The position numbers and the translations under genes are program-made. From assembly GCA_019671135.1 (NCBI GenBank), contig JAHRHY010000012.1, forward strand, positions 1,054,001-1,118,000: DNA of 64,000 bases, written 5' to 3'. The stretch's first letter is position 1; every line of letters starts with the position of its first letter. Below, in pieces: positions 15,814-43,099 of this stretch. The notes under the pieces were generated by a model. The model had not been told where the DNA came from, did not search any database, and worked only from the letters and a program-made list of their open reading frames with translations. The stretch is from Linnemannia hyalina. Its lineage: Eukaryota; Mortierellomycota; Mortierellomycetes; Mortierellales; Mortierellaceae.

Positions 15814-18800
15814 TCAACACAGTTCGCGAGACAGAGGTCCGTTCGTCTGCTGCGTGTAGTGGAGCTGTTGTTCCTGGAATGTCAAGACACTGGGGCAGTA
15901 TCTCGACTCGCCGTGGGGTCCCACAGGCTCATCTCTCGATGCCCAGCCGCCATTATGGTTGTCGTTGTTATGCTGGTGCTGTTGGTAGTGGTATTGTTGC
16001 TGTTGTTGATGTCGATGTCCTCCAGTGCCCGCTCCTCCAGGCGACATTGGTCGTTGTTGTTGAGGCTGGTGCTCTACAGCAGTGTGGTCCATGTTGGACG
16101 AGTAAATCGTTGTCTGTCGGAGGGGAGAGTGGCGACGAACACCATGAGCAAGATAGTCATTGTGTGCCGTCACAGTTGGGTCAGGATCTCGATCCGCATT
16201 GTCGTCCATAGGGTGCCGAGGCGGACTGGCATGGTGCTGTTGCTGATGGTGCTGCGGTTGCTGCTGCTGTCGACCTGAATGGGGGCCTAGACTGGAGTAT
16301 CCATGCATCTGACGTCTCGCCCCATTCCTGGGGCCGAGGGAGCCATAGTACTTTGCAATCGAAGTACATCTCGGAACTGGCTTGAGCAACTCTCGCTCAC
16401 ATCCGACACAGATCCTTGCCAGGCAGACCTCACCAACGCCACCAGAGCTCATCCTCCGAGACATTGCGATCGCACCTTCGTTGCTCAAAGCCAGAGGTGA
16501 GGGTCCCATGTTCATCATGTGTCCGGATCCTCCCACAGTGTTATTACCCCTCAAGATAGAGGACGAGCTGGATCGTCTGCCCAATGAAAAGGCCACAGAG
16601 TGGTGAGGTTGCAGGTGACCGTAGTGATTGGCATAGACATTCTCGGCAGCGCTGATGTCGACACTGCCTCGTCTCGAATCCGACTGGTGAGGTGCGGGGC
16701 CTGTGCCTGTGGTCCCTTGTCCAAACAGTCCGAAAATACTGACTCGAGACTTTTTCATCGCCGACGGAGCCATTTGCCAGGATCCTCGTCTACCTCCGCT
16801 GCCACTTCCGTTCAAACTGCGCTGACCCATGCCGACTCCGCCAAGGCCGCCATTCATTCCAGACGCGTGTCCGACTGAGCCAGTGCCGTCCATTGTTCCG
16901 AGCATTGGCGCGCTACCTACACCTGATCCTGCAACCAGGGCAGATTCGGCAGCTGTGCGAACAGGGTGTAGCTGTGGGAGAGTATCGATCCAGAGGTTGT
17001 GGCGCTGAATGTCGACTCTGCGCGACCACCGGGCGAGCTGGGATTGCTGGACATAGACGCAGTTCTTGGCATCCATCAAGATCTCAGCGCTTGCACATTT
17101 GCCGCAAAAGATATCGCCGCATTTGCGGCAGTGATGGCGTGGGTTGGTCAGTCGATGGAAAGGGGCAAAGCAAAAGGCGCATGTCTCGCGGGAGGAGTCA
17201 GGCTATATGAAAAATAGGGGGTACAGAGAGAAGTATGAAAACATTGACGGAAAAAGAGGGGTAGATGGTAAGTAGGCGTTCGTGTTTGTCCCGCATGAAT
17301 CCAAATATGAATGCGTCCTTTTGCACTGCATGAAATAACAAAGCTAGTGGTTACCTTCCAATGCCTCTTGTCAACTGTTGGAGGTCCTTTAAGCCAGCGT
17401 GAGAGACTCCACCACGAAGATGCGTCGTTGGCAGACTTGGAGATAGGCACAGTCGATGTCAGCTCTTGTCGTCCTTGCTGCTTGTAGCTCATCTTGGTGA
17501 TCTCTTCCCGAGAAAGGGTGCGCAGACAGCGAATTGATTGCTGAAAGTCCTTGATATTGTCCCTGGCCATCACAGGGATAGTGGGGAGCTGCGAAAGCGT
17601 CGCCTCGGCCGACTCGACCGCAACGTTCGACAGACTGGGTATACTTGGCTTGACACGCAGGACACGCTCAGTAGGGAAGAGTGAGTGGTGCCAGGAAACG
17701 TGTTTCCGACCAACACGCTTGCCAGCGGCGCGAGGGAAGGTATGGCAGCTGATCGAGGACTTTAACGGCTGCTTGACGACCTGCGAGACATCTGTGGCTC
17801 CGTTCGGAGAAGCGGTCGTCGATACATTAAAGTTGGCCCCGACCGAAGATGACTCCTGCACATCAGGAGCGTCTCCTTCTGACTTCATTCTCGGGCGACG
17901 AGCTGGGACGATGATGATGGTGGGGATTTGACTTGGCCCGTTGGAAGACTGCACCGGCGACGACGATTCCGTCACCGAGACGTCAGCCCGTCGAGTCGAC
18001 TGGCGCTCATTCGAGTTCCTACTATCGCTACTACCAGAGCCGGAGCTGCGATGCTGATGTGGCGAACCCTTGACCTCAACTCCAGAATCCGTTCGACGTG
18101 GTCGGTTTGGCTCTTGAGACAGGACGGCTGCGGCTGCGTTGGGTCCCAACATGAGTCGACGGTTCTGCTCGGAGAGATTGCTGCCTGGTCGAAGCCCAGG
18201 CACGGTGGAAGTGGTACGTCCACTGTCTGAACTGCCACTGTAAGGCTTCAGTGCGTTGTGCTCTTCCTGATGCTGTGCTGACAGGGGCTCGGGAAAGGGA
18301 CCAGGCGCTGGCCAGACATCCGTGAGTCCTGGACGACGTGCGACTTGGGCGCTCTGATGAACTTGTTGACCGAGAGGCGAGCCAGTAGGATGGATCGTAA
18401 AGTTTTTGGCTTGAAGAGTGAGGGGAGGTGGTGCCGGTTGAGATACCTCCCCCAACAAAGCGGTGAGGCTGGACCTACGGACGACCTGCTTGGTGATGGC
18501 TCGCTTCCGCAGGTAGTTCTCATCCAATCTCGGGGGTCGGTAATGAGTGTACATGGATCGGGTATATTGTCCAGGTGGTGGTGCTCGAGGTTTGTTGGAC
18601 TTGTTGGTTGGGTCATCCTTGGCGCCATAGTGGTATTCAGAAGACGAGTCTTCATCCTCCTCATCCTCTTCTTCCTCGTCATCCTCATCCTCCGAGTACG
18701 AATAGTCGTCTTCGTCCTCATCCTCGTCTTCATCTTCTCCCGAATAATCGTCCTCGTCCTCGGCGTCGTCCTCCACGTAAGGAAGCATCCGAGCTTTTGC

Positions 18801-20447
18801 AACTTGAGACGCATCACCAGGGGACGACAAAGATCCACTGGTCGAAGAGCGACTCGAAGTTGTGCCTTGATCTGGTATCCGTTGCCGATTCTGCTGCTGG
18901 AGGTGCTGTTGCTGCTGTTGGTGAGACATCCGCGTGGTCGGTGTATTTGTATCTGTCGATGGTAACGGCGGTAAGGCAGATGCGTGACCGCGTGAGGTTG
19001 GACTATGTGTGGTCGAGGACAAGGGTCGTCCGTCTCGCGGCCTGACTGTCTCAAGCATCAACACACGCTCATCCATCCCGTTGTCTCTCACATGGATGGG
19101 TGCGTTTGTGGAGGAGATACTGCGATCGTTATTGCTTTTGCTGCCTGAGTTGCTCTCGGTGCTGCTATATTCGGCACGATAGGGTTCCTGCATATTGCTA
19201 CTGTCGGGGTTGATGTTCCAAGCGCCTGCCGCCAAGGTCAGCTGCTTGAACACTTCTTGCTGAGCTCGCTGTGCGCTGATGGGGTGAACGCCTTTGGACA
19301 AGAGGTCAGGGGTAGTCGTCAGCGACACAGCGTTGCTGTTGTTGGTGTTGGTATTGGTGTTGATGTTAATGGCGGGATGGGAGACAGTGGTTTCGCTACT
19401 TATTGGCAGTATCTGGTGAGGATCGTCTCTCGCCAAAGACATATGGGTCGAGGACTCTGTCTCGGTGTGGTCGCTCCCGCTGTCCGAGTAATCATCGTCG
19501 TCAATATCGCTGTCGTCCAACTCGCTCTCATCCTCGTCATCCATGCTGTCCTCGTCGTATTCGCTATCATCATCGTCCTCTTCCTCGTCATCGTCCTCCT
19601 CCTCCCCGTTGTTGCGAACTTGACCACGGTGCCCCCTTCCCTCCTTATCGATATCATCGCTGTCATCAGAACTGACAGTTGGCGCATTGTTACGAGCAGG
19701 TTTTGCCATGAGAAGATGAAGAGGTGCCTCTGGAGAGTAGAGCGAGTCGTGCCTGGGCTGCTGGTCCTTGTCGGCCTTGGGCAAAATGAGCTCTTGCTCC
19801 TTTGTTTGATCCCTTGGACTGCGAGGAGCGAACGTGATCTTTGGATCGTCCGTTGGGTGGACAAGCTGGTGAGCCGAAGAAGGGTCCTTGCTGGACCTAT
19901 GCGCCGCCGGATGGGTCGCCTTTGTTCTAGGTGATATCCGGTGTTGCATATGATGTTGATGCTGTTGCTGCTGCTGCTTTAGTAATTGTCGATGTTGATG
20001 GTGTGCTTGATGCTGCTGCAGAAGTTGCTGTTGCTGTTGGAGTGGATGTGTTTGTTTTGGTTGTTGTGGCTGCTGGGTATTATTGTTCTTTGAGAGTTGC
20101 TGGTAGCGTGCTTGTTGTTTGAGCTGCTGTTGGTTACGCAAAAGTTGTTGCTGTTGTTGGTGTTGCTGGAGGAGCAATTGATGCTGTTGGAGTTGCTGCT
20201 GTTGAAGGGCTAGTGCCTGTGGAGGTAAAGGGGGAGGTTGATGTTGTTGCTGCTGCAGCAGTAGCTGTGGTTGCTGTTGCTGTTGCTGCTGGAGATAGGT
20301 CATAATGGTGGAGTCGAGGCAAGCTTGGATCCGGCGTGGACTGTAGTTAGTGAAGGTCAGGGGATCGAGGGCGGTCGGGTGAACAGCGTTTGCAGGGGCC
20401 GAGAGGAGGGACGGGTGTGTGGAATCAAAGGATACGTGTGAGGACAT
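15814..20447 (-). CDS. FYVE-finger protein with poly-Q and acidic tracts
   Basis: Two exons (17355-20447 and 15814-17202) give 1,493 residues. About residues 50-180 are poly-Q/Gln-Leu-His. Two Asp/Glu/Ser tracts lie near 280-330 and 570-620, and much of the rest is Ser/Pro-rich and likely disordered. The FYVE zinc finger starts right after the splice junction: Cys1039-x2-Cys1042, the diagnostic RHHCRKCG block (Cys1056, Cys1059) and FCGKC (Cys1064, Cys1067). The fourth pair, ARICVGC (Cys1296, Cys1299), comes about 228 residues later instead of the usual 20 or so. A Gly/Ser/Met-rich insert fills the gap. FYVE fingers bind phosphatidylinositol-3-phosphate on endosomes or vacuoles. The N-terminal WxxD motif is not evident, so lipid binding is probable but not assured. 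A His/Gln-rich tail follows the finger. The precise orthologue is unknown. Confidence 0.8.
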
Positions 20448-23400
20448 TGAAACGACCTTTTTATTCCAAAAGGCGCCTTTTTGTTGTAGTAGTAGTTGTT
20501 GCTGTTGCTGAGAGGGAGAGGAAAGGCGAACGATTCTTTCTCTCTAGAAGATGGGCCATGGCGAGAAGACAAAAGGTGTGAAAAAGTGTAAATCAGAAAA
20601 GACCAGTAGAAGGATCGCGGCTCTGTTCCTATTTGGCACGTACCTCGTTTGGACCTTGTTTCTAAAGAGGAAAAAAGGTCCCTTGTCCTATGGGTTCTCC
20701 AATGGGTAGTCTCCAATGGGTAGTCTCCTTTGGGCGAGTTAGAAAGGGAGGAGTGGAAAGGAAGACCTATGGTCGTCGATTGGGATTGTGGCGTTTCGGG
20801 GGTTATAATTGTATGGCCAAGTTGGTGGGTTGCGGTGAAGTAAACAAGAAGAGAGAGAAGAAAGAGGAGGAGAGAGAAAGTAGAGTGGAAAGAGAGTGTG
20901 GGAGTGAGTGCAATTGCAAAGTGAAAGGAGAACGAGAGGAAAGAGAGAGAGAGGGAGACAGAAGGAGAGTGGTTTTTGGCGCGTGAAAGAAGGATGGATG
21001 GACGACGGTATGTGATAAGAGAGGGAACAAGGTGTTCAGCAGGGAAAAGTGAATTGTGAAGGAGTGTGTGTGAACAAGAAGGCAACAGGAACAGGGAACA
21101 CAGACAAGTTACAAACAGATACAAACGAGGAAAGGTGAAAAGTGGAGAAAAGAGTAACAAGGGTGAAGAAAAGGTTGAAGAAAAGGAAAGAAGGTCAAGT
21201 GCTTTTCAGGAGGACGAGAGCAGAGAAAGGATTGGTTTGTGAAGGTGGGTGGTGTTCAGGGCAGATTGGATTGTGATTTGAAAGATAAAAATATACAGCA
21301 GAAAGGCAAAAGTGGATGACAAGGGTGGAGATATGGACGTTGAATAGAAAAACGTGAAGGTCAAGGTAGGACGGAAGGAAAGTGAACGATCGATGAAGGA
21401 TAAAGTCAATTGGACGATGAGGGGATGGGGAACCAAGTGGGAGGAATACCGATTGATAGGATGCGGAAAATAAAAAACAAGAACGAGCGAAGAAGGAAAG
21501 AGAGGGAGAAGGAGAGAAAAGAGAAAGAAGAAAGAAAGAAGCAAGAAGAAAGAAGAAAGAAAGAAGCAAGAAGAAAGAAGAAAGACGAAGGAAAGAAGAA
21601 AGAGAGAATGAGAAAAGAGAAGAGAGAGAAGCTGTTGTCGCTGCTAATGTTGTTTGCATCCTTCAATCAAAACATACATCCAGTCCTTCAGAGGAAGAAG
21701 AAGAGGGATGCCCTCTTCCGCCCTTTTTTCTTTTGTTTTTTCTTGTGGCCCTTTATTCACTCTCACTCCTCCTCCTCTTCTGTTGTCGTCGTCGCCGTTT
21801 TCTGTCAACCCCCTCGCTTTTTTATTTTATTTCTGCAAGGCTGGACGATTATACCTCTGGGCATCATAGATATCTGCCATGCCATGTCTTGCCTTGCGTT
21901 TGAGCACATGGTACATTTCACAGGGGAGTCCAACTCTTTCCAAGAAAGAGAAAGCTTGCTGTTGACGTGCGGCTGATGTCTCTTCTTTATCTCGTCCGTC
22001 CTTTCTTTTTTCTCACTCATCCCTCTTCGTCTGCTCCTTTCTTTCCTCTCCTTCTCACCCTCGATGCCCGTCGTTGTTATTCCCAACGAGTGAACAACAA
22101 CCAGGCGAAAAGGGGTTCACATACAAGCCATTCCCATGTCTGAAGACGCTTTTTATATTCTCTTGTTTCCCTTTGTAATGCAAAAAGTAGTTTGTTTTTG
22201 TTGTTTGTTTGTTTTGTTTTTGTTCAGCTTCCGAATGCATGGATGATCGATCACACCTATTTTTCCTTTTGTTCCATTCTTTGCCTGACTGGCTGACTGA
22301 CTGACACCATCCATGACACCCCACCCCCGCCCCCTTCATCTCTTTCTTCCCAGACACAGCTTTGTAACATTACACCACCACCACCACCACCACGTCGTCT
22401 CAAAAAAGCTATGACAAACACGATAAACAACGACGCCATGATGGTGTGTGGGCAGGTGAGCTGGTCGCGATGGGAAGGAGTACGAGAAGAGGAAGAAGGG
22501 GGGGTGTCCGGAAAACTTTGGTTTGGGATTCAGAACCAAAAATCACGATGCCATGGTCAAGCCACTATCATGCCCATTTATACATACACAGCATTAGTAA
22601 ATGCTATCATGTCAACGAAAAAGTATGTTTCTCATTTCTTGTCATGGCCTTCGCTCCCTTCATTTCCTTCGCGTTCTTCCGCGTTGTGGTTTATTCGAAG
22701 AAATCACGTTCAATTGGCATCAATTGAACGACCTTAACTCTCTGCCATGTTCACTTTCTTACTCACACGGTCGCCTATCTCCTGGCTACTTATTTTTATT
22801 TTTACTTTATTAAAACTGTGTCTCTCTCAATGCGTTCTTTTTTTTTCTTCTTGTGCACACTTCTTTTGTCAGCTTGGAATAAAAAATAATGCCGAAAGCA
22901 AAAGAACAGGGTTTACTCACTGACCATGTGCCCACATTTTTTTCCATTCCCGCTCCTCACTTTTTTTTTTTCCTGCAACGAAAAAAGAAAATCAACAACA
23001 TCGCCCAACCATCACCCTTCTCCGCCCGTCGCGCCCGATCCCCTCAAGTCCATTTTCCCCTTCCCCCCTTTGCCTTTTTGCATTAGAGCCACCGATGTTT
23101 ACTAGAGATAACACAATATTGTCAATATCTACAATGCAGAAGCCATTTTTTTTTGTCTGGACACGTTGCTATTGCAAGACGTTGTTTGTTGTTTATTTTG
23201 AAAGGAGGGCTGACCTCGAACCACATAGCATTGTCTAGGTCTAAATCACCTCATTGCTCACTCCTCCATCGCAACCCTACAAGTCTTGGCCTTTTCAACA
23301 GGGGGAGAGAAAATATCAAGTAGTAGTTGCAGCAGTAGGTATCAAGAGGGAGGAGGGAGAGAGAGAAAGTTCAAGCATCCAAGCATGCAAAAAATCAAGA

Positions 23401-25920: not shown

Positions 25921-28849
<2,929 letters not shown>

Positions 28850-30183
28850 TGTCTGGATATATGTAGATCAAGCTTGTGCTGAAGTGTGTTGTTATGGGTA
28901 TGTGGAAGGAAGGAGAAGAAGGTGAGTAAGAAGAATATGAGGGAGAGAAGAAAGAAGGAAGAAGTGTTGATTTTTTGGAGGGAGGGTAGGAATGATGTGA
29001 AAGGAGAAGAGCAGACGAAGAAAAGGGCGAGGACGGACCATTTATACTTCTCTCTGGCCTGGTCTGAGGGTCAGAGAGTCACTTAATTTTAGCCGGCCAT
29101 TCATTGAATTCGTTTCTGTCATGAACTGAGTGTATAGCAATAGCATAGCCAGTGGCAGACAGAAGCCAGAAACCTCACCATGCGTTGCCTTCATGTCTAA
29201 CCATTGTGCACTATTGAACCTTTTTTCCAATCCCATCTCACTACAAAGACTTATGGACCTTTTTTTCTTTTATCTCACTTATCCTTCAATCATTTTCACA
29301 CGCTCAGTTTGCTCTGGCTCTGGTTCAAACACAAACGCAGCGCATGGTATTGCCCTTTTTTTCCGTCTTGTTCTCTCGCATGTTCCTTTATGAGATGCTT
29401 ATCGTGCATTTTCATTTTTTCAGGAGTAAAAAAAAATGGCAGAGAAGGAGAGACTTCCCTCCATCCGTCAGTCCCTGGGTTCCTGTTCATCCTTGTGTGT
29501 GAACAGGACAGAGAACTGGAGTCGACTGGCCCTTTTCTCTGCTCCAAAAAGGCGGAAATATGCCTTCGCTGCATTTGTTCGTCAATTGATTGAACATGCA
29601 CACAGAACATGCATTAAGGTGCGGGAGTTGCGGGAAGAATAACGCTTGGTCATGATGCGTATGTACGAGTATCCCTAATTGCTCCCCTCTTCCGCCCACT
29701 TGAAGTCTCTCTATTCTTTTTCCTTTGACCTGTTCCTTCCCTTGTGTGACTCCTGTCCTTCGGACATGTAATTTCTCTCCCAGCAACAATTACATCAAGA
29801 GAAGGAGCGCACTCTTCCCCATTTCTTCTTCCTCCCCATTTTCGTCATCTGCAGGGTTTCCACTGCAAAGCAGTTCAGGTAAGGGGGCGTGGGACCTATC
29901 GCCAGGTCAAGTTCAATTGGATCTTAGCTCTCATTTCCATCCAGCAAGAACCAAAGTATGTTGGGTCAGGAACAACACAGCCAAGGTTCCCGTTTGGGGA
30001 CATCCTTGCTTTTTCGCAAAACCAAAATTACAGTACATTGGCGCTCGTGCTTTTGAATGAATATTCTTTGAGCCGTGACTATCTGATATCGCAGTCCGGC
30101 TACTACCAACAACACACAAAGCGCAACCACAACCACACATCTCTTCTCAACCACACACCTCTTCTCAACCACACTCCTCCATC
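28850..30183. other. GFA1 promoter region and left flank of mobile island
   Basis: Upstream of GFA1 (first 200 bases purine-rich on +, i.e. a pyrimidine-rich leader on -). Further right the DNA is mixed with CT-rich patches. From about 29.9 kb it should pass into the mobile island, but I could not see a terminal inverted repeat or target-site duplication marking the border. No gene is supported. Confidence 0.5.
30131..30180 (+). repeat. 18-nt tandem repeat before SANT-like ORF
   Basis: Two 18-base units of the AACCACACNNCTCTTCTC type (30131-30148, 30149-30166) and a partial third (30167-30180) end just before the ATG of the SANT-like ORF. This is probably part of the element's leader. Confidence 0.75.
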
Positions 30184-31523
30184 ATGTCACAAGCATCATC
30201 TGACCTTCATCGCAAGCGTCAGCGGTCTCCGACTCCTTCAAGAAGCAATCACGCACGCGACATCGATCAACTTCACCCTGCTGTTGAAGAGCTTATCGCG
30301 CAGGCGGATACCAATAATGAAGACACAGATGAGAGGGACTCTGACAGCAACAACGACGATCAGACAAAGGACGAGGAGGTTGAAGATGACGTTGGTAACA
30401 GGAGAGAGACTGCAAGGGAGGGAACGAGCGACGGGACAGTTCGTCGTACACCGCAGCCTCGAGCAACTACATTCAACGGTTTCAAGGACCCTGCTCATGA
30501 GTTTTTGCTACTAAAGGCTTTGGATGCGGTCAGGCCGTTCGGTATCCAACACGGATAAACACGAGCTGCTTGGTCGAGAGTTGTTCAGTATCTGAAGGAT
30601 TATGATGACAAGGAACGAGCCGAAGGTCGCCCAACAGTGTTCGACGAGTCAATCCCCGTGTATGTCGAGCCAGATGGAAAAACTTGTCGAGCGAATATGC
30701 TGAGCACGAGGCCGCTATGCTGAGAGCTACTGGAGTCAATCCACAGATAACCGACCGACTGAAGTACATGCAGCCCGTGTACGAGTTTGAACAGGCCTGC
30801 AGGAAGACAGCCGATGATAACAAGGACAAAAGACATCGCAAGAAGGCGCGGACAGAGAGTAGCCGAGTGGAAGGTCTTCTTTTGTTGGAAAGGTCTCGAA
30901 CAGGCCCTGTTCGAGTAGTACCAGACCTGCTTCAGCCCATACAAGGCTCTATGTCAGGGACGGAGTCTGAGTCCAGTGTCTCCGTTATCTCCGATCATAC
31001 CCCAAAGACTCCCGGGATGAGAAAACGGGCCATGACAACACTGTTGACACGGCAGCTTCAGGAAGCGAGCGCATTTTTAACGACCCAGGCCGAAAACCAG
31101 TGTAGGCAACTGGACATGATGATCGAGGATCAGGAGGAGCGAAGGAAGATGGAGGAAGAGCGAAGGAAGGTGGAGGAAGAGCGAAGGAAGATTGAGGAGG
31201 AGCGGAGGAAGACGGAGGAGGACACTAGGCGGGAACAGGCCGCAGTACAGGAGAGACAGCAGAAGGCGCTCATGGACTTGATGGCATTACAAACGGAGAG
31301 CATGGAGCGAATCGCCACCCAACAATCACAAACCACGAAGGAGCAGGCGGCAAGCACGGAGCGCCTTATCCTCGCAATTATGGCGGGATGCAATAAAAAA
31401 AGATTGATTTATTCCAACTTGTTCCATGATAGCTGGATGGATGTACTCTCGCAGTGTAGGAGGATCAATACCAAACTGCTCATTTATCTTAACACCATAG
31501 TAACAAGTGTGAATATTGGTTAA
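30184..31523 (+). pseudogene. broken Myb/SANT-like accessory protein of PIF/Harbinger element
   Basis: The frame opens with MSQASSDLHRKRQR and runs 124 codons to an in-frame TAA at 30556-30558, after FGIQHG. The same frame continues with TRAAWSRVVQYLKDYDDKE, typical of a SANT/Myb-like helix, so the stop interrupts a once-continuous domain. A second break follows: near 30675-30682 a run of five A is one base out of phase, and the protein continues in another frame (SSEYAEHEAAMLRATGVNPQ onward). The downstream part has a long Glu/Arg coiled coil (repeated EEERRK units near 31130-31220) and a Gln/Thr-rich helix. In PIF/Harbinger transposons this protein brings the transposase to DNA. Two disabling changes argue that this copy is dead. 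The 3' end overlaps the end of the transposase frame. Confidence 0.7.
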
Positions 31524-32539
31524 CAAAATAGCAAAGCGATTATGGGATCAATACAAGTGGACAATAAGCGGTGACTCTTAGGAAAGTCAATGCCTGAGAA
31601 ATATCTAGTTACCTCCCCGAATGCCCACTCTATAACGATGCGAAGACCCGACATCGTCTGATTGAACGTCTTTGCCTCCGGGGTGAGGTTCGCGCCTGTG
31701 TAGCCAACGATCATGTGCGGGTCGGGCATATAAGCGGAATCCTCGTAAAGAGCAAGGGGCCGGCCAGTTGTATCAAAAGCGTGCTGCTCCAAGATGTCCA
31801 TGATGCCGGATTGCTGATATATAGTGATGTCGTGAGTGGTGCCGGTGTATGCCTTGCTGAGATGCAGAATGATGCCGTCTGGACCAACGACGCTCTGATA
31901 CTTCAGAGCACGTACATGCTTGTGTCCGTTGTACATTGACGCTTGACTGACTGTTGGTCGATTGATCCTGCGTACGGTGCCATCGATGAATCCGAATACC
32001 GCGTTACACTCATGGTTGCTCTGCTCATAGCACAGCTCAGCATACTCTTCAAGCTTGGATGGTGTCAATCGATGATGATCCCAGATTAACAGCTGGTTCC
32101 AACGTAGCATGATCCACTTGACAAGATGATTGATGAGACGGGAAATGGCGCCAATACTCCTGCGGAATATGGCCTCCATCCTGTTAAGCCGGGCCGGGTA
32201 GGTCAAACGGTATACGGCCATGCAAAGTACCGTAAGCGAATCAACGTTGTCCCTGTCGCGGCTTTTGATCCTTGGGGGAACCTGTGGGACCTCAAGGATC
32301 TCCTCCAGTTGGGCACAAGTGAACCGAAATTCTTGTACGCAGTACTCGTCGGAATATTGGCGTACGTCAAATGAGGCATCAAGCAGAAACGGGCGGTGTA
32401 GAACTGGATTCTCGTCCTCGTCGTCCTGGTCGAACTCGTTGTCGTCAAGGCCATAGAGCATAGCGAGTTGTGCCGCGATTACCGGCACGAGAAGGACGGC
32501 CATCTTGAATGAATGAAGAGCGATGGTCTGTAGCAGCAT
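31520..32539 (-). pseudogene. PIF/Harbinger-type DDE transposase, C-terminally frameshifted
   Basis: An uninterrupted 339-codon frame starts with ATG at 32539 (a second Met lies 12 codons on). The DDE_Tnp_4-type signature is visible: FGFIDGTVRRINRP (Asp186), YTGTTHDITIYQQSG (Asp237), LYEDSAYMPDP (Asp267) and IEWAFGEVTRYF (Glu304). Transposases of this family cut at terminal inverted repeats and usually target TWA. After IDPIIALLFC the frame stops. One base out of phase, however, the DNA goes on with LLTNIHTCYYGVK and a PPTLREYI motif, the conserved tail of this family. A frameshift near 31530-31545 has therefore removed the C-terminus. It is convergent with the SANT-like ORF and divergent from the Fanzor-like gene. 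I rate it as a damaged but fairly young copy, since the rest is open. Confidence 0.75.
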
Positions 32540-32716
32540 TCAAGGAAGACATGGCATAAAGCAAATGCGAGCTACCCTTCTTCCTGCAAAAAGCTCTATA
32601 AATTAAACTTTTTTTTAAAGGATTGGTTGACCTTTTTCCTTCTGCCACACACACAATTAACTCATTGCCAAACCTTTTTAATCCTCTTCAAACATTGACA
32701 CAGTCTCTAAAATCCC
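32540..32716. promoter_or_regulatory. divergent promoter between transposase and Fanzor-like gene
   Basis: Only 177 bases separate the transposase ATG (-) from the proposed Fanzor ATG (+), so both must start from this stretch. It contains a T8 run and AT-rich TATAAATTAAA at about 32597-32607. No inverted repeat reaching into the flanks was seen. Confidence 0.45.
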
Positions 32717-35700
32717 ATGGACATGACAACTCTGGTAATGTCTTATTTTTCTTTCATGTCTATAACAGCTATGTCTGCTACCTGGACTGGAGGCGCCACT
32801 GACATGTTTGTCTTGTTTTGTTATTACAGACCGAATTACTCTACATTTCGCACGACCAAGAATGGATGGCAAGGGCACCTGCTCTAATGGACGACACGTC
32901 GCATCAGTATCAACTGTATGAAGCGTTTCACGCTCTCAAGGACACGGAGTTCACCGGAGATGTGGCCGACGTGAAGGCTCGACTTCTAGATAAATTGTTG
33001 GCTATTGAGACTCTATCTGATAGAAACGCGACGAGCGCACAACTTCAACAAATATCACCTCTGACAGCCTTCCCCCACTATGTGGCAGAAACCTTGCTGA
33101 ACGCTGGAATCCGGATGCAGGGTGGTCGGAGTCAGAGCGGGATTCTTCACGGTTTTGCGCTAAACATCAAGGGTCCAAATGAGCATCACTCACACCAAGA
33201 TGTCGACCCCGACCCTCCACCGTCCACCGTGTTGTCTTTGCGTCTTAACCACCGTGGCCCTCTTTTGTTTGAATTCCTGGCGAGGCATTTCAACTGTATC
33301 ATCTACGAGTTCACCTCGGTTGGAACAGTGGATCGATTCGCCCCTGGAGACGACAAGACGCCCTGCTTCTCGATGGGGTTTTTGAGGGCGTGTGATGGCA
33401 TTGGAACACTCGTGGAGTACTTTGTCCTGGGCCCTGCTCGTCATGCAGAGCCCCGTCCCTCCTCTACGCCTTCTCCTCCTGCGCCTTTTTACGATCCCCA
33501 ACACCCACACCCCGCCATCCTTCGTCATGAGAAACGCGCGAGGAAAGGAGCCAAACGGGATCGGGAACTGACAGAGTTTGACGATAGTGCGGCGATTGAG
33601 CTGTATGCCTCTGCTTGGTAAGTTATTGCCCTTTTATCCAAAAGAAAGCAACGCCACTCAATGGAAACGCCATGGATAAAGACTGCAGACCTCTAATCAA
33701 TTTTTTTCTTTCAATCTGTTTATAGTCGTCACCGGTTGGACAACTTCATTCTTGCTGAGGCCGACAAAATTCGGAAAATGTCGCCCAAGTCCAATCCCAA
33801 GAACAGAAACGCCATTATGCAGGATCTCAAAGCACGTCTGATGGCAAAACCTCACACCCCCGACGGAGTCTTCATGGAGTACATGGAGTTGATGCAAAAG
33901 GAGCTCAACAACACCAAAATCACCCGCAGGAGGGCTGAAGGCAAACTCGGAAAAGGACCGGTGATGATTTGGCGACGGGTAGTGAGCGATGACATGGAGG
34001 TCCGGTGGAAGGAGACAGTCGATGGAGTAGTTCAAGGGTCCGACTATCAACCCAAGGGCAAGAAGTCCATGGGATCTGCTGCAAGGAACAACGTCGCAAG
34101 CAGTGAGAGCAAGGCCATGACGCCCCCGGTTGGATCGTCATCAACAACAACTCCAAGGCCTTCAGGGGATATGGTGGACAAGGCAAGTGTGGATATGGAC
34201 AAGGACATGGATGTCGACGATGGAGGAGAGAGCAACGTCGTGGATCTTGGCAGCAAGTCCGATACTGATGAGGATGATGCAGGCCCTAGTAATGGGTACC
34301 AGTCGTTCACCATGACGCTTCTACAGTCTCTGAGGCCCGATTTACACGAACAGCACGACGAGATTGCAGAGATACTGGAAGCAAAGCAGGATATTGCATC
34401 TGATTTCGCATCAGATGTTGCCCTTCTCGGAAGGAAGGTGGTCTTGGAGGTACTAGCTTTGTTGTGTTGCTTTGAATGCATACATGCATGCATGCATTTC
34501 CAGCTGGCAACGATACACAAGGAAGGAAGAGATCGTTTTTACTAATATGTGGTTGTTGTTTTCATATCGTAATTAGGCCGGATTGCAGTTCAAGGGTAGG
34601 ACTGATGACGGCTTTCTTTTGAGCCAGATATTCCCGGCCGGCTTTCAGTCTCGTCTGCCCAATGTCGATCTCGATACTGTACGGGTGCCCGTAGCAGCCC
34701 TGGATCCGGAGCTCGAGAGATTGATCGAGACCAAGGACGATACACCTCGAGGCAAGGATGTCCGAAGTATTTTATCTTCAGTAGCGCTGTCGTTTTTGTC
34801 TGTAAGGCATCTTGGCGTCCACGCAGACGAGGACAACACCTCAGGAAACAGAAGCACCTCCTCACCAGTCGACCACACCTTTTGGCAGGACCTCTCTGAC
34901 AGCATACGCGCCTCGTCACCATCAGCACCTTCACCAAATATCGATACAAACAGCCACCCTCTTACCAACTTTTCAAAGACCACCAGGGCCATGCTTAACG
35001 ACATCTCGTCTAATTTTACCAACATCTGGGATGGTCCGTTATTCGACAAAATATTTCACACATTCTGCAACATTATTTTACGACTACATCTCACACCGAC
35101 AAAGGAGGAGGAGTGTAGAAAACGCGAGGCTCGGCAAAAGCAGGAGCGGGACGCCAAGAAGGAGGAGTCGACTATGAAGACCTCCAAGAGTCGAAAGTGC
35201 TGGTGGAAACGTCTGCGAAGCCTACAGTCAGATTTGGCCCATTGTCTCCGTCAGCCGGGATCAGACAAGAAGGCAGTCAGACTGAACACCATCACCAATG
35301 CGTTGCGAGGACTGGCGGGGTCAGAGCCTGAGATTCTTCATGTTCAGTTGCCAGGCCTGGAGGAACAGTTGGAGGCTATGGGAAGGACATCTGCTACGAC
35401 ACCAGTGGGCGATTCTCTGATTGACGCGCTATGCAGCAGAGTTGAAGCAGAAGATCAACATTGCGACTTTCTACTGCAAGAAGAGCAGGGTGCCGTTGAA
35501 GGTGAGTTTTTGAAGGAAATGTTATATGCTTTGTGACATTATCATTTCTATTTACTATAACAACAACTAACAATTGCTCTTGTTTCACGTCTACGTTTTT
35601 TTTAGATTGGGCAAGGGATGAGTTGAAACATGCCTCAAAACCAGTGGATGAGCGGGTGCTACGGATGGGTAAGTGCTTTATATGAAAAATAAATGATCCT

Positions 35701-38604
35701 AGGTGAAAGGATAAGGCGTGTTAATACATTCGCTTTATTATTTATTTGATTGTTTAGCCATGGAAACACCCCCCAACAGGATGAAAGCGCTCCTAGCCGT
35801 CTTTAAGATGCTTCTGCAGTCACCGTCGATCCATCGCAAGGTCCTCTCATCCTATGTTCGACGATGCTGTAAGGGGGTGGACCCGACAGAGGAGGAGTGT
35901 GCTACTATCGCGAATCTAGTGGAACTCCTCCGGCCATACATACCAAAAAGACGATTACCGGAGTCTGCGTCACGCTCCCAGGAAGAAGAGTTGCCTCAGG
36001 GATACACATTCAAAGCCCTGCCCCACGTCGTTACCATGGCTCCCTTCATCATCCTCGCCGACGCCACACTCCACATTTCCGGTTATTCATCCCTCACTCG
36101 CCGCTTCACTCCCGACGTGTCACCATCAACAAACTACTCACTACCCCTAACCGGTACCTCTCTATTCGAGACACTCTTCAGTTCACAACCACGACAATTC
36201 GATGCCAACGACAACAGCAACAACACTATATCCACCTTTCCGACAAAGCAGCAGAAGCCGAGGTTATTCTTTTCCGTCTTCAATCGATTGGCCATCGAAT
36301 CCGCGTGCTACAAGAGAAAACTACAGTTTGCCCATCGGTAAGATAACTCGATTTTATTGTGATAATGATGTTCGATGAAATGAAGCATGAAGTAACTATT
36401 TTATCTAACCCTTTTCTGTTCAAATGCGTATTTTTAAACGTAGGATTGTGTTTGTTGACAGATGGCGCATCAGAGTTATGGGACACCCGCTACCTCATCA
36501 GGACGACCTACGACAAGGCTACCCAGTCACCAGCAGCTTCGACATAAACAGAAAAAACAAGACACCGTCTCCGTCCACAATTGATTGGAAGTCCGAGGTC
36601 CACCGTATGAACGCTGATGATGCATTGGCTCAGGCGGAACTAGATCAAGGCCTTCGGGAACTGGAATTGGCTGAGAAGAAGCTGAATGGTCTGCGCCTCA
36701 ACTTGGAACTCTTGGAAGAGGACAAAAAAGACGCTGCGAGGCGTCGGAGGAAATTGGGTCGATTGCGTCGTCGGGGTGATACATCGGACGAGACCTTGCA
36801 GAGTTTGAGCGTGGCTCGGGCGGAATTCTCAACTCGTTTGGACAAGTACCAGGCTCACATCAAACCTGTGCAGGACGCCCAACGTCAGGTCAAGGAACTA
36901 CGACAGCGAGTCTACTACTGGAAAAAACTGCAGTACTACACAACGCCCGAAAAGCCCGACCGTACAACGGACAGCACATCCAGCAGCTCTGGAGTTCATT
37001 CGCAGCCAACATGGACAAGGCCCGTGTGTGAAAATCACACTGAGCGCATTGATTTGTCGGGGCTGGTTTCTCGCGGTAGACATCACGTTACTTTTGGAGC
37101 AACAGACCCAGGAATGGCCAAGATGCTGCAAACGGTGGGAATTTCGGTCAGGGATATGTCGCGCCGCTTAAACATCTACAATATGCTACAAGGTAACACA
37201 CGGTATTATGTTGGTGATCAAACGTATCTCCAGAACGGTATGAAGCTGCCTAATATTATTTAGGATACTAAATGATTTTTTCTGCTCAAAAACAAATAGA
37301 CCTTGCAGACACACAGGACACGGAAAGGACTTTACTCCTCCAACACGAGCTGGCGCAGGAGCTGCAGGAGCCAGTAGCCGTTCCCCCTGTGATTACTACT
37401 ACAGCACCTCAAATCAATCATCTCGCACAGTCAACACAGAGTGCCAAAAAGCGACAACGCCGCATAACCCAGGATATAACTGCCGCATACAACACTCTCA
37501 GCAACAATTCAGTGCAGCATATCTACACACCCCAGGACCTGAATAACGCCCGTGCAGCCAAGTCGGCAACACGGTCCCTGCTGCGCGACTTTGAACGAAC
37601 TAAGGCGAATTCAAAGGACAGGAGAACCACAGAACTGCTGACCAAGAAGGCGTATGCTGCTTTGGCAGCCAAAGAGCGCCGTTTCATTCAGTCATGTGGT
37701 AAGAACAAGGCTCTTTATTGCACTGAATTTATTATCTTTGGAAATTTTCTTATGCTGCCTTTCGACGATTTCACTTTACTTAGATACTGTGCCAGGGTTA
37801 ACGACGGAGAAGGCGAAAAGGCAGGACTCGTCGACCACCACTACTCCTCCTTTGTTGGTTGATCTGACAACGGCACCTGCATCGAGCCAAGTTCCTATAC
37901 TTTTGCCAACGGAATCTGGATCATCGAATGTTACACTATCGACAACACCAGCAACCAACCAGCTCTCCCCGCCGCTTGAAATCGACGATGGCTTTTGCGA
38001 ATGTGGCATGTATCACATTTCGAACCATACCTATGGATCCTACCGTCATGGGTCGCATTGTCCCCGTCGCTATCCCAAGGCTCTGCCGGTGATATTTTAT
38101 GGAGGAGCCGGTACTGGCGTCGGCTCTACCATCAAGGGCTTTTCAAGGAGAGGAGGAGGAAAGACGCGTGAGCAACACAGACGCTACTGTGTCGTGGGCA
38201 TAACCAACGAGAATTTGACGTCTAAACTCTGCTGTGTCTGCCTGGAGCCTGTACGCCTTGCCTCTGCCCGAAGGATCATCGGAGGACAGATCCGCACAGT
38301 TCGAATCAATGGAAGCGTTATCTGCCAGAACGCCGTGTGCCCACTTGTTTATCAACAAAAGGCGTCATCCAACCGGGATAGAAACGCAGCCACCTGTATC
38401 GGACTCTCGGGACTTTCAACATTGCTCTCTACAGACAATCAGCCGCTGCCTCCTTTTCGGCTGCGAACCCGACCTTCTCGACCATCAACCCTGCATGCAG
38501 CACACACCAACCCCAACAGCACCAGTGCAACTGGAATCAACAATCAATCCGGCAATGTGGCTATGATCCGCACCCTGTTGGATCTCTATGTACATAGAGA
38601 ATAG
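32717..38604 (+). CDS. Fanzor/TnpB-like RNA-guided endonuclease (putative)
   Basis: Nine exons (32717-32734, 32830-33617, 33726-34449, 34577-35501, 35606-35668, 35758-36337, 36444-37192, 37300-37698, 37784-38604), all GT-AG, join in frame to 1,688 residues. The C-terminal third carries the TnpB/Fanzor signature. RuvC-I is VTFGATDPGMAKM (Asp1254). A Glu (E1558, in ITNENLTSKLC) directly precedes a zinc ribbon, Cys1565-x2-Cys1568 and Cys1596-x4-Cys1601. RuvC-III is SSNRDRNAATCIG (Asp1614). The Glu just before the TSK motif matches the rearranged active site known from Fanzors rather than canonical TnpB. A Glu/Lys/Arg coiled coil (about 1090-1195) lies where the REC/WED region of a TnpB would end. 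The first 1,000 residues have no domain I recognise. Fanzors are nuclear nucleases guided by an RNA from the element's own 3' end. The 18-nt first exon is the least certain part. Unlike the neighbouring transposon genes I see no stop or frameshift. Confidence 0.72.
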
Positions 38605-38840
38605 TGGGTAAGTTTTCCATCGATCATCCAATTATTGATATCCTTTCGGCATTGATTGCATTTGTGGAGGTTAAAACTGTTGACTAACTCAATTTTCACC
38701 TGCCTAATCTATTTTGATTGCGAAAGATGTCTATCAATGAATGAAAGTTAAAAAAAGAAAAATGTAATTCTAATTTTGAACTTCGTACGAACAGGAAATG
38801 GGAGACTTGCACCCACGGATACTCAAGTCTCCAACCTGAC
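38583..38840 (+). ncRNA. candidate guide (omega) RNA region at Fanzor 3' end
   Basis: In TnpB/Fanzor systems the guide RNA derives from the 3' end of the nuclease gene and the flank behind it. Here a perfect 18-nt palindrome (38583-38600) sits over the last codons. About 200 bases past the stop, GGAGACTTG (38801-38809) and CAAGTCTCC (38824-38832) form a perfect 9-bp stem with a 14-base loop. The region is otherwise noncoding. Position and structure fit; expression and boundaries are unknown. Confidence 0.3.
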
Positions 38841-39523
38841 TGCTCAACCCTTTTACTTTTATTCGCTATATAGAATATGCACTCAGGTCGATCATATAGG
38901 TATTGAAACCATTCATTGATAGTAGATGGGTTGAGTTCCTCTTTTCCAATGCTTATCGTTGCAGCTGATGTAAAACGATCGGCGCTCCTCAAGTTTTGTT
39001 GTGCAGGTTGGCTTCTTCTTTTTTACTGCCATGACACTCAAAATGAGAAGACATACATTGCTTTTATCATAGATGACGAGTGCTGGATAATGAGCAATGG
39101 GCTGGCACTTCTTTGTGCTCACTCCCTGGCGTCTTGGTGAGGATTGCCCCACTTAGCGAACATGTTACGTCTTCGGTATTCGATAGGCTGGGCAAACAAG
39201 GTGCACCTTATGATGCAATTAATCCACGTGACTCCACTCTCTCTTCAAGTGACTGCGCCTGAGGTTCAGAAAAAGTGCATGGGGTGGGGAAAGGCACTTT
39301 GCCCTTTGCCACACAATTCTCGTCTTTTTACCATCTCTTACTCACTGACTACTCAACAACTACCACTAACACACCATCGACAGACACCCCTCCTCCCTCA
39401 TCAACACTTCCTTCTCTCTACTTATACCATCCTCTAGCCATCCTCACATTCCTTTTTTCACCTTCTCTTTTTGACTTTCATTCTGACAAGCGAAACTAAT
39501 AGAAGCCTATTCACATTGCCACC
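38841..39523. other. right flank of island and ATG1 promoter
   Basis: No gene is supported. The last 250 bases are CT/AC-rich, like other leaders in this window, and lead to the ATG1 start. The border of the mobile island must lie in or just left of this stretch but shows no obvious repeat. Confidence 0.5.
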
Positions 39524-42500
39524 ATGGCCAGCACCGCAAAAGCTGTTCCAGAGGCTACTCAAGTGGGAGACTATATTGTCGAGTACGAGATTGGCCGAGG
39601 ATCCTTTGCAACCGTCTACAAAGGTCACCACAGGGTGAGTTCGCACGCGCGGAGTGGTGGAGGTGGCCGCGCCTTCTTCAACTTGGTTTTGCTTTTTACA
39701 ACTCCGTTCTTTGGCCTTGGCAACCTTGCTTTGCGATATGTGCTGCGTGCATTGCAGTCAACTCTTTCATCGATGACAATTGACGCCTAATATCTTCCAC
39801 TTATCTATTAGGTGACTAAAGAACCTGTTGCCATCAAGTCTGTCCTTCGTTCTAAGCTCACAAAGAAGCTGCTTGAGAACCTTGCCAGCGAGATCAACAT
39901 TCTCAAAGGCATTCGACATGATCATATCGTCGCCCTTGTCGACTGCAGGGTAAATGGATATTGAGGGTTTGTGTCCTCTCGCTACTGCAGCAGTTTATTA
40001 ACAACATATTGAAGCAAGCAGTCGTTCAACGTCGCCCCGTTGTGCGTCCTTCTCTCACTTGTTATTGTCACACATACTGACTCACTTGTTACTTTACTTT
40101 ATTCCTCCTGCTCTCCCTATAGGAAACCGAGACTCACATACATCTAGTCATGGAGTACTGCTCACAGGGAGACCTTTCACAGTACATCAAGAGGAAGGGC
40201 GACGGACCTCCGTCGTTGCCTTCCCCTCCAGGCGGTGGTCTCCATGAAGTCGTCGTTCGTCATTTCTTGAAGCAGTTGGGTATGTTCAAACGTTCATGTT
40301 CTTCCTTCCTTCTGCTTTTTTGCTCTTTTGCCCTTGTGCGACGATGGGATGATCGACTCTTCTCTTAGGCTCATTTTTTTGTTGCTTGTCCCTGTCGTCT
40401 TTGTGTCCCTCTTCATGTAGCTTCTGCCCTGGAGTTCCTTCGTTCCAAAAATCTCATTCATCGCGATCTCAAACCACAGGTAAAATGGGCCTCATCGAAA
40501 CCCTTTCTTTTTTTGAGAAGTGGCAACCCCTGTCTCGCCATATCGCAAACCATGTCCTCATTCTTTTCGCTTTTTTATTTCCTTTTCTAGAATCTACTTT
40601 TGCACCCTTCGAGTAGTGCTAAGGAAGGAAGCGGATATGGGTTGCCAGTGCTCAAGATTGCAGATTTTGGATTCGCCCGCTCATTGCCTCACCTTAGCCT
40701 GGCAGAGACACTTTGTGGTTCCCCACTTTACATGGCACCAGAGATTCTCCGCTACGAAAAATACGATGCTAAGGCAGATTTGTGGAGTGTCGGCACTGTT
40801 TTGTACGAGATGTGCACTGGAAAACCACCATTCAGGGCGCAAAACCACGTCGAGCTCCTCAAGAGGATAGAGAAGGCACAGGACGCAATCACTTTTCCTG
40901 GAGAGACTATCACGGAAGACCGGTCTGGATCTTCTCCCCACAGCCACGCCAATATCATCCCTATCAGCGACGACATTAAGGACTTGATCCGACAGCTGCT
41001 AAAACGGAACCCCGTAGAGAGAATCTCGTTCGAGGAGTTCTTTATGAACCCAACAGTCTCCAATCTGGCGCCCCGTGTCCGGTCTCGATCATCTGCGAAT
41101 GGCGCGTCTGGTCAGGACTTTGCTAGGAATGATTCATTCCCAATGGAGTCTCCCAGGAAATCGTCAGTTCCTAACCCGTCACAGCACTACTACGATTTAT
41201 CATCGCAGCGGGACAGGAACGATAGGCGGACATCCAGTACGGGCCATGCGCGGGAGCCCTCAGATAGGGTCATCGAGACCACTCTTCGGTCAAGACCAAG
41301 ACCCACCCGGAGCGGATCGCCCTCGTCTGCACCTGATAGTCGACCTCCACTTCAACTACCCCTTTCGTCGCCAAAATCCCACCACGCGTATGTAAATGGT
41401 CTTGGCAACCAACCATCTCACACGGATTACCAGACCCAACCATCTTCCCTACCCATCAACCCTTCCAGCCGGCGGACGCGAACCACGGATATCGGCTCAA
41501 CGGACCCTTCCAACCGGACATTAACACCACAGCCCTCTTCACAACCGTATCGTCGCAACACTCTTGTCGGGATCCCTGATGCACGCCGGTACAGCGCACC
41601 TGAAGATGATTCACTCCTGGATACAGACTACGTCGTCATTGAGAAGCGTGCCGTGGAGTTGAATGTGCTTGCAGATGGTATTTTTTCAGTTTGTCTGAAA
41701 TTTCGCAGTAATTAATATCCATGTATATGAATATGGAAGCAGATTTTAACCTATGCTTTCATTTAATATGGTAGAGGTGGCAGGATCACCGACGCCTAGC
41801 TCTACCCGCACCAAGAATGGATACCAGCAAGGCAACATTCTTTCACCGCCCATACCTACATCGTTGACCAACTATCGGACACCGCCACCACCGTTTATAC
41901 CCTACCCGCACTCGACTACAAACCAGTCACCGCCTTCCAACGCCCACCTCTTCTCCACAACTCCGCCTTTTGCTCTACCAAACACCCCAGCACCAGAAGA
42001 ACCCAAACCTATCCCACAGCTGCAGCGACCCATCTTGGGTCAGATCCAGTCACTGCCTTCGCCTGTGAGCGTGCGTTCTGGAAGTCCGCGTGAAAGCGGC
42101 GCCACCTCTGCACTTGCCAAAGCCATCTCTATGGCCTCTATGCGACTTTTTGGCGCCTCCTCGTCTCCACCCTCATGGAAGAGCAACACTTCGCTGATCG
42201 GGTTTGACGACACACCCAACAGGAATGGGGGGACGGCAGAAGTGCCACCAGAGGAGAGTCCTGTTTTGCAGTCCATAGAAGATACAGCCCATAAGGCCTA
42301 TGTTGTCTCACAGTTTGCCGACTCCAAGATGCAGGGTATTCGTCCATTGGATGAGATGGGATTCTCGCCCTCAGAAGACCATGAGCCAAGTCGGGACAGT
42401 CTTTTGGCAGAGGAAGCATTCTTTCTTTACCTCCGCGCGCTTGCCTTGTTACAGGCAGGTATGGATACTGCCCGCCAGTACTGGGAAGAGAGACGACAGG

Positions 42501-43099
42501 ATACGAAGCCGGCATCGATGCGACTCAACAGTGGTGTCCAGTGGATCCGCGACCGATTCAACGAATGTCTTGAAAAGGCCGAGGCTGCCAGGCACCGTTC
42601 AGGAATTGACCATCGGGACGAAAGCGGCGTCGTCATTGAGAAACTGATCTATGAACGCGCATTGGAGCTTGTAAGTGCATCAGGGTTTCACCAAGGCACT
42701 GTTTTTTTGGTGGCAAAAGTCTACTTTTTTACTAACAATTCGCGTGTTGTAAATGGTCTCACGGTAGAGTAAATCGGCAGCTCTGAAGGAGCTGGTGAGC
42801 GACTACTATGGTGAAAGTGAAAAGTCGTACCAGACATCGATCTGGATGTTGCATGCGATCTTGGATGGTGCCGGTGAGGACGGACGAAGCGATGCCATCG
42901 AAGACGACGACCGCGACATCTTGAACAAACGTAAGATGAGCAGCTTTGTTCTCTTGTTCGTTTTGTCCAACAACGGTTATTTGAATGCGAAACATTGTGT
43001 GTTGACTTTTGTTTTCTTTACCACTTCGACATAGTGATCCGGTCGATTGAGAATAGGTTGAGCCTTCACAGGAAGCGAATCGCTGGAGCGAGGACATGA
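39524..43099 (+). CDS. ATG1: autophagy-initiating serine/threonine kinase Atg1/ULK
   Basis: Eight exons (39524-39634, 39812-39949, 40123-40279, 40421-40479, 40591-41677, 41775-42670, 42768-42930, 43035-43099) give 891 residues, close to yeast Atg1. The N-terminal kinase domain has the G-loop [13 protein letters not shown], Lys46 in VAIKSV, the catalytic HRDLKPQN (Asp151), DFG (Asp180) and APE in LYMAPEIL. The [16 protein letters not shown] activation segment is the typical Atg1/ULK form. A long Ser/Pro-rich linker follows (about 325-620). The C-terminus contains the tandem-MIT-type helices ([15 protein letters not shown] onward, ending [12 protein letters not shown]) that bind Atg13. Atg1 starts autophagosome formation at the phagophore assembly site and is itself under TORC1 control. 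A Gly/Pro-rich insertion lies between the kinase N-lobe helix regions (near [12 protein letters not shown]). All junctions are canonical. Confidence 0.95.

Follow-up and report, generated by a model that had tools for sequence, protein, structure and literature searches.

A very large Fanzor-like gene carried by a Harbinger-type element in the fungus Linnemannia hyalina

Here, we describe a predicted gene of nine exons that encodes a Fanzor-like protein of 1,688 amino acids (aa) and that lies, together with a transposase gene, in a mobile element of the fungus Linnemannia hyalina (Mortierellomycota). The element was found in a stretch of 64,000 nucleotides (nt), referred to below as the window, which covers positions 1,054,001 to 1,118,000 of the forward strand of contig JAHRHY010000012.1 (GenBank assembly GCA_019671135.1). 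The gene model was predicted from sequence and copy comparison alone, and the genome that was searched for further copies and relatives comprises 51.5 Mb in 50 contigs. Positions given without a contig label are those of the window.

Splicing and translation bear out the stop-free, nine-exon frame of 1,688 codons that a first-pass annotation of the window had assembled by hand. The spliced coding sequence measures 5,067 nt, including a stop codon at 38602-38604, with no internal stops, and its eight introns (32735-32829, 33618-33725, 34450-34576, 35502-35605, 35669-35757, 36338-36443, 37193-37299 and 37699-37783) all run from GT to AG and are frame-consistent. Two other acceptors would also keep the frame, at 36461 for intron 6 and at 37308 for intron 7, and would make the protein 6 and 3 residues shorter, respectively. 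The aspartate of the FGATDPG motif, which begins at F1250, is D1254, as that annotation had it. The glutamate is present as E1558 in E1558-NLTSKLCCVC, but it stands three residues ahead of the threonine and not directly before TSK. The Cys2-Cys2 zinc ribbon is formed by C1565/C1568 (CxxC) and C1596/C1601 (CxxxxC) with 27 residues between the pairs, and the terminal motif reads N1612-RDRNAA and includes D1614. Apart from the position of the glutamate, the observed frame and motifs are confirmed.

The genome holds two further copies of the element, at C23:1413972-1422654 and C2:892264-901054, whose exon 9 is 99% and 96% identical, respectively, to that of the window copy. The nine exons and eight splice sites are the same in all three copies, whose 5,067 coding nt contain neither indels nor internal stops; introns 4, 5, 7 and 8 differ in length, and the confinement of indels to introns gives a Fisher p of 4e-4 when these four length-variable introns are counted as events. 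Synonymous divergence (dS) among the copies is 0.03-0.05. The ratio of nonsynonymous to synonymous divergence (dN/dS) over the whole gene is 0.28, 0.29 and 0.32 for the three copy pairs, and the excess of synonymous changes over their neutral share gives p = 1.2e-7, 5.6e-10 and 1.2e-7, in tests for which the copy pairs are not independent and fractional counts were rounded. The protein has been kept by purifying selection since the three copies parted. The earlier description of the gene as intact-looking is thus supported beyond the evidence it was based on, by the conservation of the frame in three copies.

The three copies of the element align at about 97.6-97.8% and differ in their right flanks. 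The right end, ...GATGTCTAT, falls at 38734; the left end is uncertain, position 30033 being common with the C23 copy and about 30068 with the C2 copy. No terminal inverted repeat and no target-site duplication (2-3 bp in Harbinger) was recognised at the ends of the three copies, and for this reason we term the element Harbinger-type only, like MCi-5 of Mucor. Its transposase has 339 aa in the window copy and 377 aa in C23 and C2, and the window copy shows a one-base length difference to these two. A partner open reading frame (ORF), with a Myb/trihelix-like part and a coiled coil recognised by eye only, had no Pfam match at E<=1; it is split in the window copy (30079-30558 and 30609-31523, the longest piece encoding 304 aa) and reaches 240 aa in C2. 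Both helper frames of the window copy look damaged, while the Fanzor frame is intact. The giant gene is the cargo of a multicopy Harbinger-type transposon, a point absent from the first-pass annotation. Exon 2 has 14 matches at eight places in this genome, all within relatives of the gene, and a DDE transposase gene or a piece of one adjoins seven of the eight (three intact, four with stops). Four older relatives contain stops in exon 2 (C15:5007, C39:5004, C39:26559 and C20:320976), and three of them, on C15 and C39, lie within about 27 kb of the contig start. For a relative with 50% identity (L042, on C23), neither DDE nor NDC10_II is among the matches listed at its place. At C49:1469940, a degenerate relative includes the transposase half, and the next 4 kb contain no Fanzor part. 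The C-terminal 648 residues match at least 54 places in the genome.

Table 1. Features of the element and of its giant gene (window positions).
Feature	Positions	Strand	Basis
Giant Fanzor-like gene, predicted, nine exons, 1,688 aa	32717..38604	+	splicing, translation, copy comparison
Exon 1	32717..32734	+	splicing
Exon 2, N-terminal region	32830..33617	+	splicing
Exon 3	33726..34449	+	splicing
Exon 4	34577..35501	+	splicing
Exon 5	35606..35668	+	splicing
Exon 6	35758..36337	+	splicing
Exon 7, contains D1254 in FGATDPG	36444..37192	+	splicing; relatives' alignment
Exon 8, between first Asp and Glu	37300..37698	+	splicing
Exon 9: E1558, zinc ribbon C1565/C1568/C1596/C1601, D1614, stop	37784..38604	+	splicing; core alignment
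Harbinger-type mobile element, 8.7 kb	30033..38734		three-copy alignment
DDE_Tnp_4 (Harbinger-type) transposase	31520..32539	-	PF13359 E 8.6e-25
Partner ORF (Myb/trihelix-like + coiled coil, by eye only)	30184..31523	+	465-aa frame in C23 copy
Strip after stop, candidate omega RNA source	38605..38734	+	copy conservation, folding

Relatives of the gene also occur in a second, Crypton-like carrier. One relative, with 39% core identity, has eight near-identical copies among the matches listed. The Crypton-like set (L029-L036; L046 with L044 on C2 and L047 with L045 on C23) combines a tyrosine recombinase with a giant Fanzor-like gene, and its near-identical copies show that it moved recently within the genome. 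The two copies that were read over their full length measure about 10.1-10.2 kb, start with AAATAATATAG, end with GACAATAA and have unrelated flanks; AATAA lies near both ends as a short direct repeat, and no terminal inverted repeat was seen in these two copies. The minus-strand gene of the element matches NDC10_II (1.8e-10) and GCR1_C (1.6e-9), domains that we take to be associated with Crypton (tyrosine) recombinases, and NDC10_II lies 7.6-7.8 kb from the giant core in all eight copies. There are at least nine further NDC10_II places with 959-aa frames; among the matches listed, the place on C20 has a giant core at a distance of about 2 kb and the other eight have none in their vicinity, the lists of both kinds of place being lower bounds. 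Because such frames occur without a giant core nearby, the giant Fanzor gene looks like optional Crypton cargo. Carriage by eukaryotic transposons other than IS607, as for Fanzor1, is thus found both in the DDE_Tnp_4 unit and in the Crypton-like relative, and Crypton is named among Fanzor1 partners in PMC10711439.

The motifs of the protein agree in kind with those of known Fanzors. PMC10711439 describes as Fanzor fingerprints a DPG and a glutamate that precedes the zinc finger by six residues, and both are present here, as D1254-PG and as E1558-x6-C1565 (E1558-NLTSKL-C1565). In SpuFz1, the catalytic residues are D383, E541 and D606 (PMC10432273, PMC11423790). Nine relatives of the giant protein are present in the protein database (P0001-P0009), five of them modelled at 1,605-1,797 aa. 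Only P0001 and P0009 have the N-terminal part together with all three core motifs; P0003 (1,148 aa) has the core motifs without the N-terminal part, and in each of the other six models one or more core motifs are missing, through what may be either mis-annotation or decay. In aligned core segments, the Glu and the RD are invariant (8/8), and the first Asp, corresponding to D1254, is common to all seven aligned relatives, as DPG in five and as DRG or DPR in two.

At the level of the family, profiles point to the same identity. The zinc-ribbon profile PF07282 stays below the cut-off for the 129-aa core of the window protein (E 0.33), and it matches seven of eight family core segments at E<=10 (best E 1.3e-4), with no listing for the eight segments when reversed. 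A core profile built from eight members over the last 131 positions of the family, run against 177,635 distinct PDB sequences, returned four matches at E<=10, namely PpFz1 (0.17), SpuFz1 (0.44) and two chains of Cas12f (0.48 each), and both Fanzors align with the profile at the Glu, at the Cys pairs and at the RD; a profile of the reversed segments matched nothing in the PDB. Compared by hhalign with Fanzor-like proteins of ordinary size from Mortierellaceae, the core matched with P 2.8e-5 for 20 sequences and with P 1.6e-7 for 10 sequences over a longer region, both matches covering the zinc-ribbon part only. The core hidden Markov model (HMM) found 51/120 of these ordinary proteins at E<=10 as against 8/240 reversed or shuffled controls, and 25/120 scored above the best of the 240 controls. 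Searches of PHROGs with the eight core segments gave a 'transposase' family for two (best 0.0092), and viral contigs gave 266 pattern matches, none confirmed. The Fanzor identity proposed in the first-pass annotation is therefore supported by family-level profiles and not by single-sequence matches, which are absent: residues 1240-1640, for which the lack of a significant TnpB/Fanzor profile match had been named as refuting the identity, gave no such match as a lone sequence, but the family segments and the family profile do match.

The right end of the element offers a candidate source of a guide (omega) RNA. According to PMC10711439, Fanzor1 RNA comes from the right end of the element, with the guide running on into the flank, and three insect-virus Fanzor1 RNAs extend about 15 nt past the target-site duplication. 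The 130-nt strip that follows the stop codon here has 0/130 differences to C23 and 1/130 to C2. When it was compared with five 3' flanks of relatives, only L015, the flank of the 50% relative, stood out, with a likeness to part of the strip (shuffles as good in 5/1000); the counts per 1000 for the others were 86 (L044), 482 (L026), 928 (L025) and 943 (L027). A scan of the window with Rfam gathering thresholds and a tRNA scan gave no matches. We regard the strip as a possible omega RNA source and a lead only.

We place the gene, with a probability of about 0.7, in the Fanzor lineage, as a divergent member of very large size that is nearest to Fanzor1 and is the cargo of a Harbinger-type (DDE) element, and we infer RNA guidance and nuclease activity for the giant protein. 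A number of results weigh against this interpretation. Neither the 1,688-aa protein nor exon 9 matched a Pfam family at E<=10, and NCBIfam returned nothing for five proteins, exon 9 included. The PDB matches, taken singly, have E values of 0.17 or worse. An HMM of the ordinary Fanzor-like proteins gave 2.6e-4 for the window protein and placed none of P0001-P0009 above reversed controls. Comparison of the full-length families by hhalign gave P 0.47 without a core match, and the full-length family profile had no match in the PDB. Significant local matches end at the ribbon and a global alignment left the two first-Asp motifs unpaired, so that the assignment of D1254 rests on motif order, DPG and conservation. 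AlphaFold models of P0003 (nine sequences) and of exon 2 (six sequences) have a mean predicted local distance difference test score (pLDDT) of 38.9 and 44.7, respectively, and a Foldseek search with the former model, at that mean pLDDT, had no matches at E<=0.001. The pattern given in PMC10711439 for TnpBs with Fanzor-type features, DPG-x(120-160)-E-x6-CxxC-x(12-18)-CxxC-x(4-8)-D, does not fit, the corresponding gaps here being 301, 27 and 12 residues and the second pair CxxxxC. Nor does the Fanzor/TnpB motif of PMC3627910, D-X(125,275)-[TS]-[TS]-X-X-C4-X(5,50)-RD, in which the 306 residues from D1254 to T1561 exceed 275; the T-S-K-L-C, the four cysteines and the distance to RD (11) do fit, and the departure from the published spacings is due mainly to the distance that separates D1254 from E1558. 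At the right end, positions 38636-38734 fold better than most shuffles (z -2.65, 3/200 as good), and the whole strip has a z of only -0.48; two Crypton-family pieces score about 0, and since the unrelated flank 38735-38864 scores -2.03, the folding signal is not specific.

The gene could also encode a Fanzor-derived regulator or accessory protein, in which the RuvC residues are kept but the role in the transposon is one of DNA or RNA binding and the large N-terminal region is the working part. Such a role would fit the constraint on the N-terminal 840 residues, where dN/dS is 0.29-0.34 (synonymous-excess p 6e-4 to 7e-6), and the values for residues 1241-1640, which are no lower (0.33, 0.43 and 0.47, from just 8 to 24 changes), as well as the departure of two of seven relatives from DPG at the first Asp. 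The core Glu and Asp are nevertheless invariant in 8/8 segments and the first Asp in 7/7, the Crypton-borne relative included, and we consider this role unlikely. A gene that died recently, and whose frame is whole just because the copies are young, is very improbable: the damaged look of the helper frames in the window copy, the stops in four older relatives (two on C39, one each on C20 and C15) and the six of nine database models without a core motif speak for it, but the synonymous excess (p 1e-7 to 6e-10) and the lack of any coding indel at dS 0.03-0.05 speak against it. We give equally little credence to a division into two genes, one long and N-terminal, the other Fanzor-like and of ordinary size; the P0003 model does begin midway and has the full core in 1,148 aa, but eight frame-consistent GT-AG introns are kept in three copies, and P0001 and P0009 are each modelled as a single protein with both parts. 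That only a TNB-type zinc ribbon is held in common, the remainder being unrelated to RuvC nucleases, is scarcely credible despite the restriction of significant local matches to the Glu-ribbon-RD part, for the order of D, E-x6-C, ribbon and RD is that of Fanzor and the Asp is present in 7/7 relatives.

If the giant gene is a Fanzor-lineage nuclease, the C-terminal third of its product would fold into the RuvC nuclease, and the middle and N-terminal parts would serve as an RNA- and DNA-binding lobe. The guide RNA would arise at the right end of the element (38605-38734) and read into the flank, and the complex would cut the empty donor or allelic site once the element has moved; repair of the cut would copy the element back, which would thereby persist. 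Cutting of the empty site so that repair restores the element is the role usually proposed for TnpB and Fanzor. An OTU-like identity of the N-terminal region, entertained on the basis of motif shape, was dropped, since exon 2 matched no Pfam family and its profile matched nothing in the PDB.

Among known systems, Fanzor1 (SpuFz1, PpFz1) shares with the giant protein a Glu shortly ahead of the first two cysteines, a second Cys pair of CxNPxC-like form and a terminal RD, and PpFz1 likewise has an insertion in its RuvC domain (PMC11423790). The giant protein differs in size, at 1,688 aa versus 633 aa for SPu-1-1p (PMC3627910), in the spacing of about 300 residues that separates its first Asp from its Glu, and in a likeness visible by family profile only. 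The ordinary Fanzor-like proteins of the same fungi (306-964 aa; 120 of 213) have NEYYTSKKCPxC where the giant gene has NENLTSKLCCVC, and HRD where it has NRD; unlike the giant gene, they are found directly by PF07282. TnpB and Cas12f, the latter represented among the four PDB matches, share the RuvC-type order and the zinc ribbon, whereas in the giant gene the Glu occupies the alternative position, as in Fanzor, and DPG replaces D-hydrophobic-G (PMC10711439). MCi-5 of Mucor circinelloides likewise unites a Fanzor1 and a Harbinger transposase without obvious terminal inverted repeats, but it has putative 6-bp duplications (ATTTAT) (PMC3627910), and none was seen at the window element. In MCi-2A of the same fungus, Fanzor1 is accompanied by a partial Crypton transposase (PMC3627910), whereas eight copies here have an open recombinase frame.

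Pairings of Fanzor1 with Harbinger (MCi-5) or partial Crypton (MCi-2A) transposases have thus been known from Mucor since 2013 (PMC3627910). No report of Fanzor or TnpB with Mortierella was found in the literature searched, outside which subscription papers and preprints largely lay. As far as these searches go, what is new is the giant clade itself, which single-sequence profiles do not return, the constraint on its N-terminal region and the occurrence of two kinds of carrier in one genome. A broader reading, which we put forward tentatively and at somewhat less than even odds, is that giant Fanzors of about 1,600-1,800 aa form a clade of their own in Mortierellomycota, that their N-terminal region of some 1,000 residues is a new conserved module of the RNA-guided machine, and that they are homing cargo swapped between cut-and-paste (Harbinger-type) and tyrosine-recombinase (Crypton) transposons and kept intact by selection despite the decay of the helpers; its odds are slightly lowered by the six of nine database models without a core motif. 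If active, the giant protein would widen the size range and the architecture of eukaryotic RNA-guided nucleases, and fungal Fanzor diversity would be under-counted, because the standard zinc-ribbon profile misses the giant clade. With its near-identical copies and its helper decay beside an intact Fanzor-like frame, the setting is suited to asking what a Fanzor does for its transposon, and the same genome offers related Cryptons with and without a Fanzor gene for comparison.

PF07282 itself occurs at no fewer than 91 places in this genome, the giant gene not among them. These ordinary Fanzor-like zinc-ribbon places (for example, L001-L008) include several sets in which the same score and frame length recur, a pattern suggestive of recent multiplication. 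Around the element, the left neighbour is the start of a gene resembling GFAT (glutamine-fructose-6-phosphate transaminase), recognised by eye at 28547-28867 on the minus strand, and the right neighbour is an ATG1-like protein kinase with an MIT domain (40591-42772, plus strand). Further to the left, a 1,131-aa open frame at 17148-20543 (minus strand), which matches nothing in Pfam at E<=0.001, overlaps a frame with a FYVE zinc finger (15814-17202), and a gene of the ribosomal protein S5 family lies at 13628-14854 on the minus strand.

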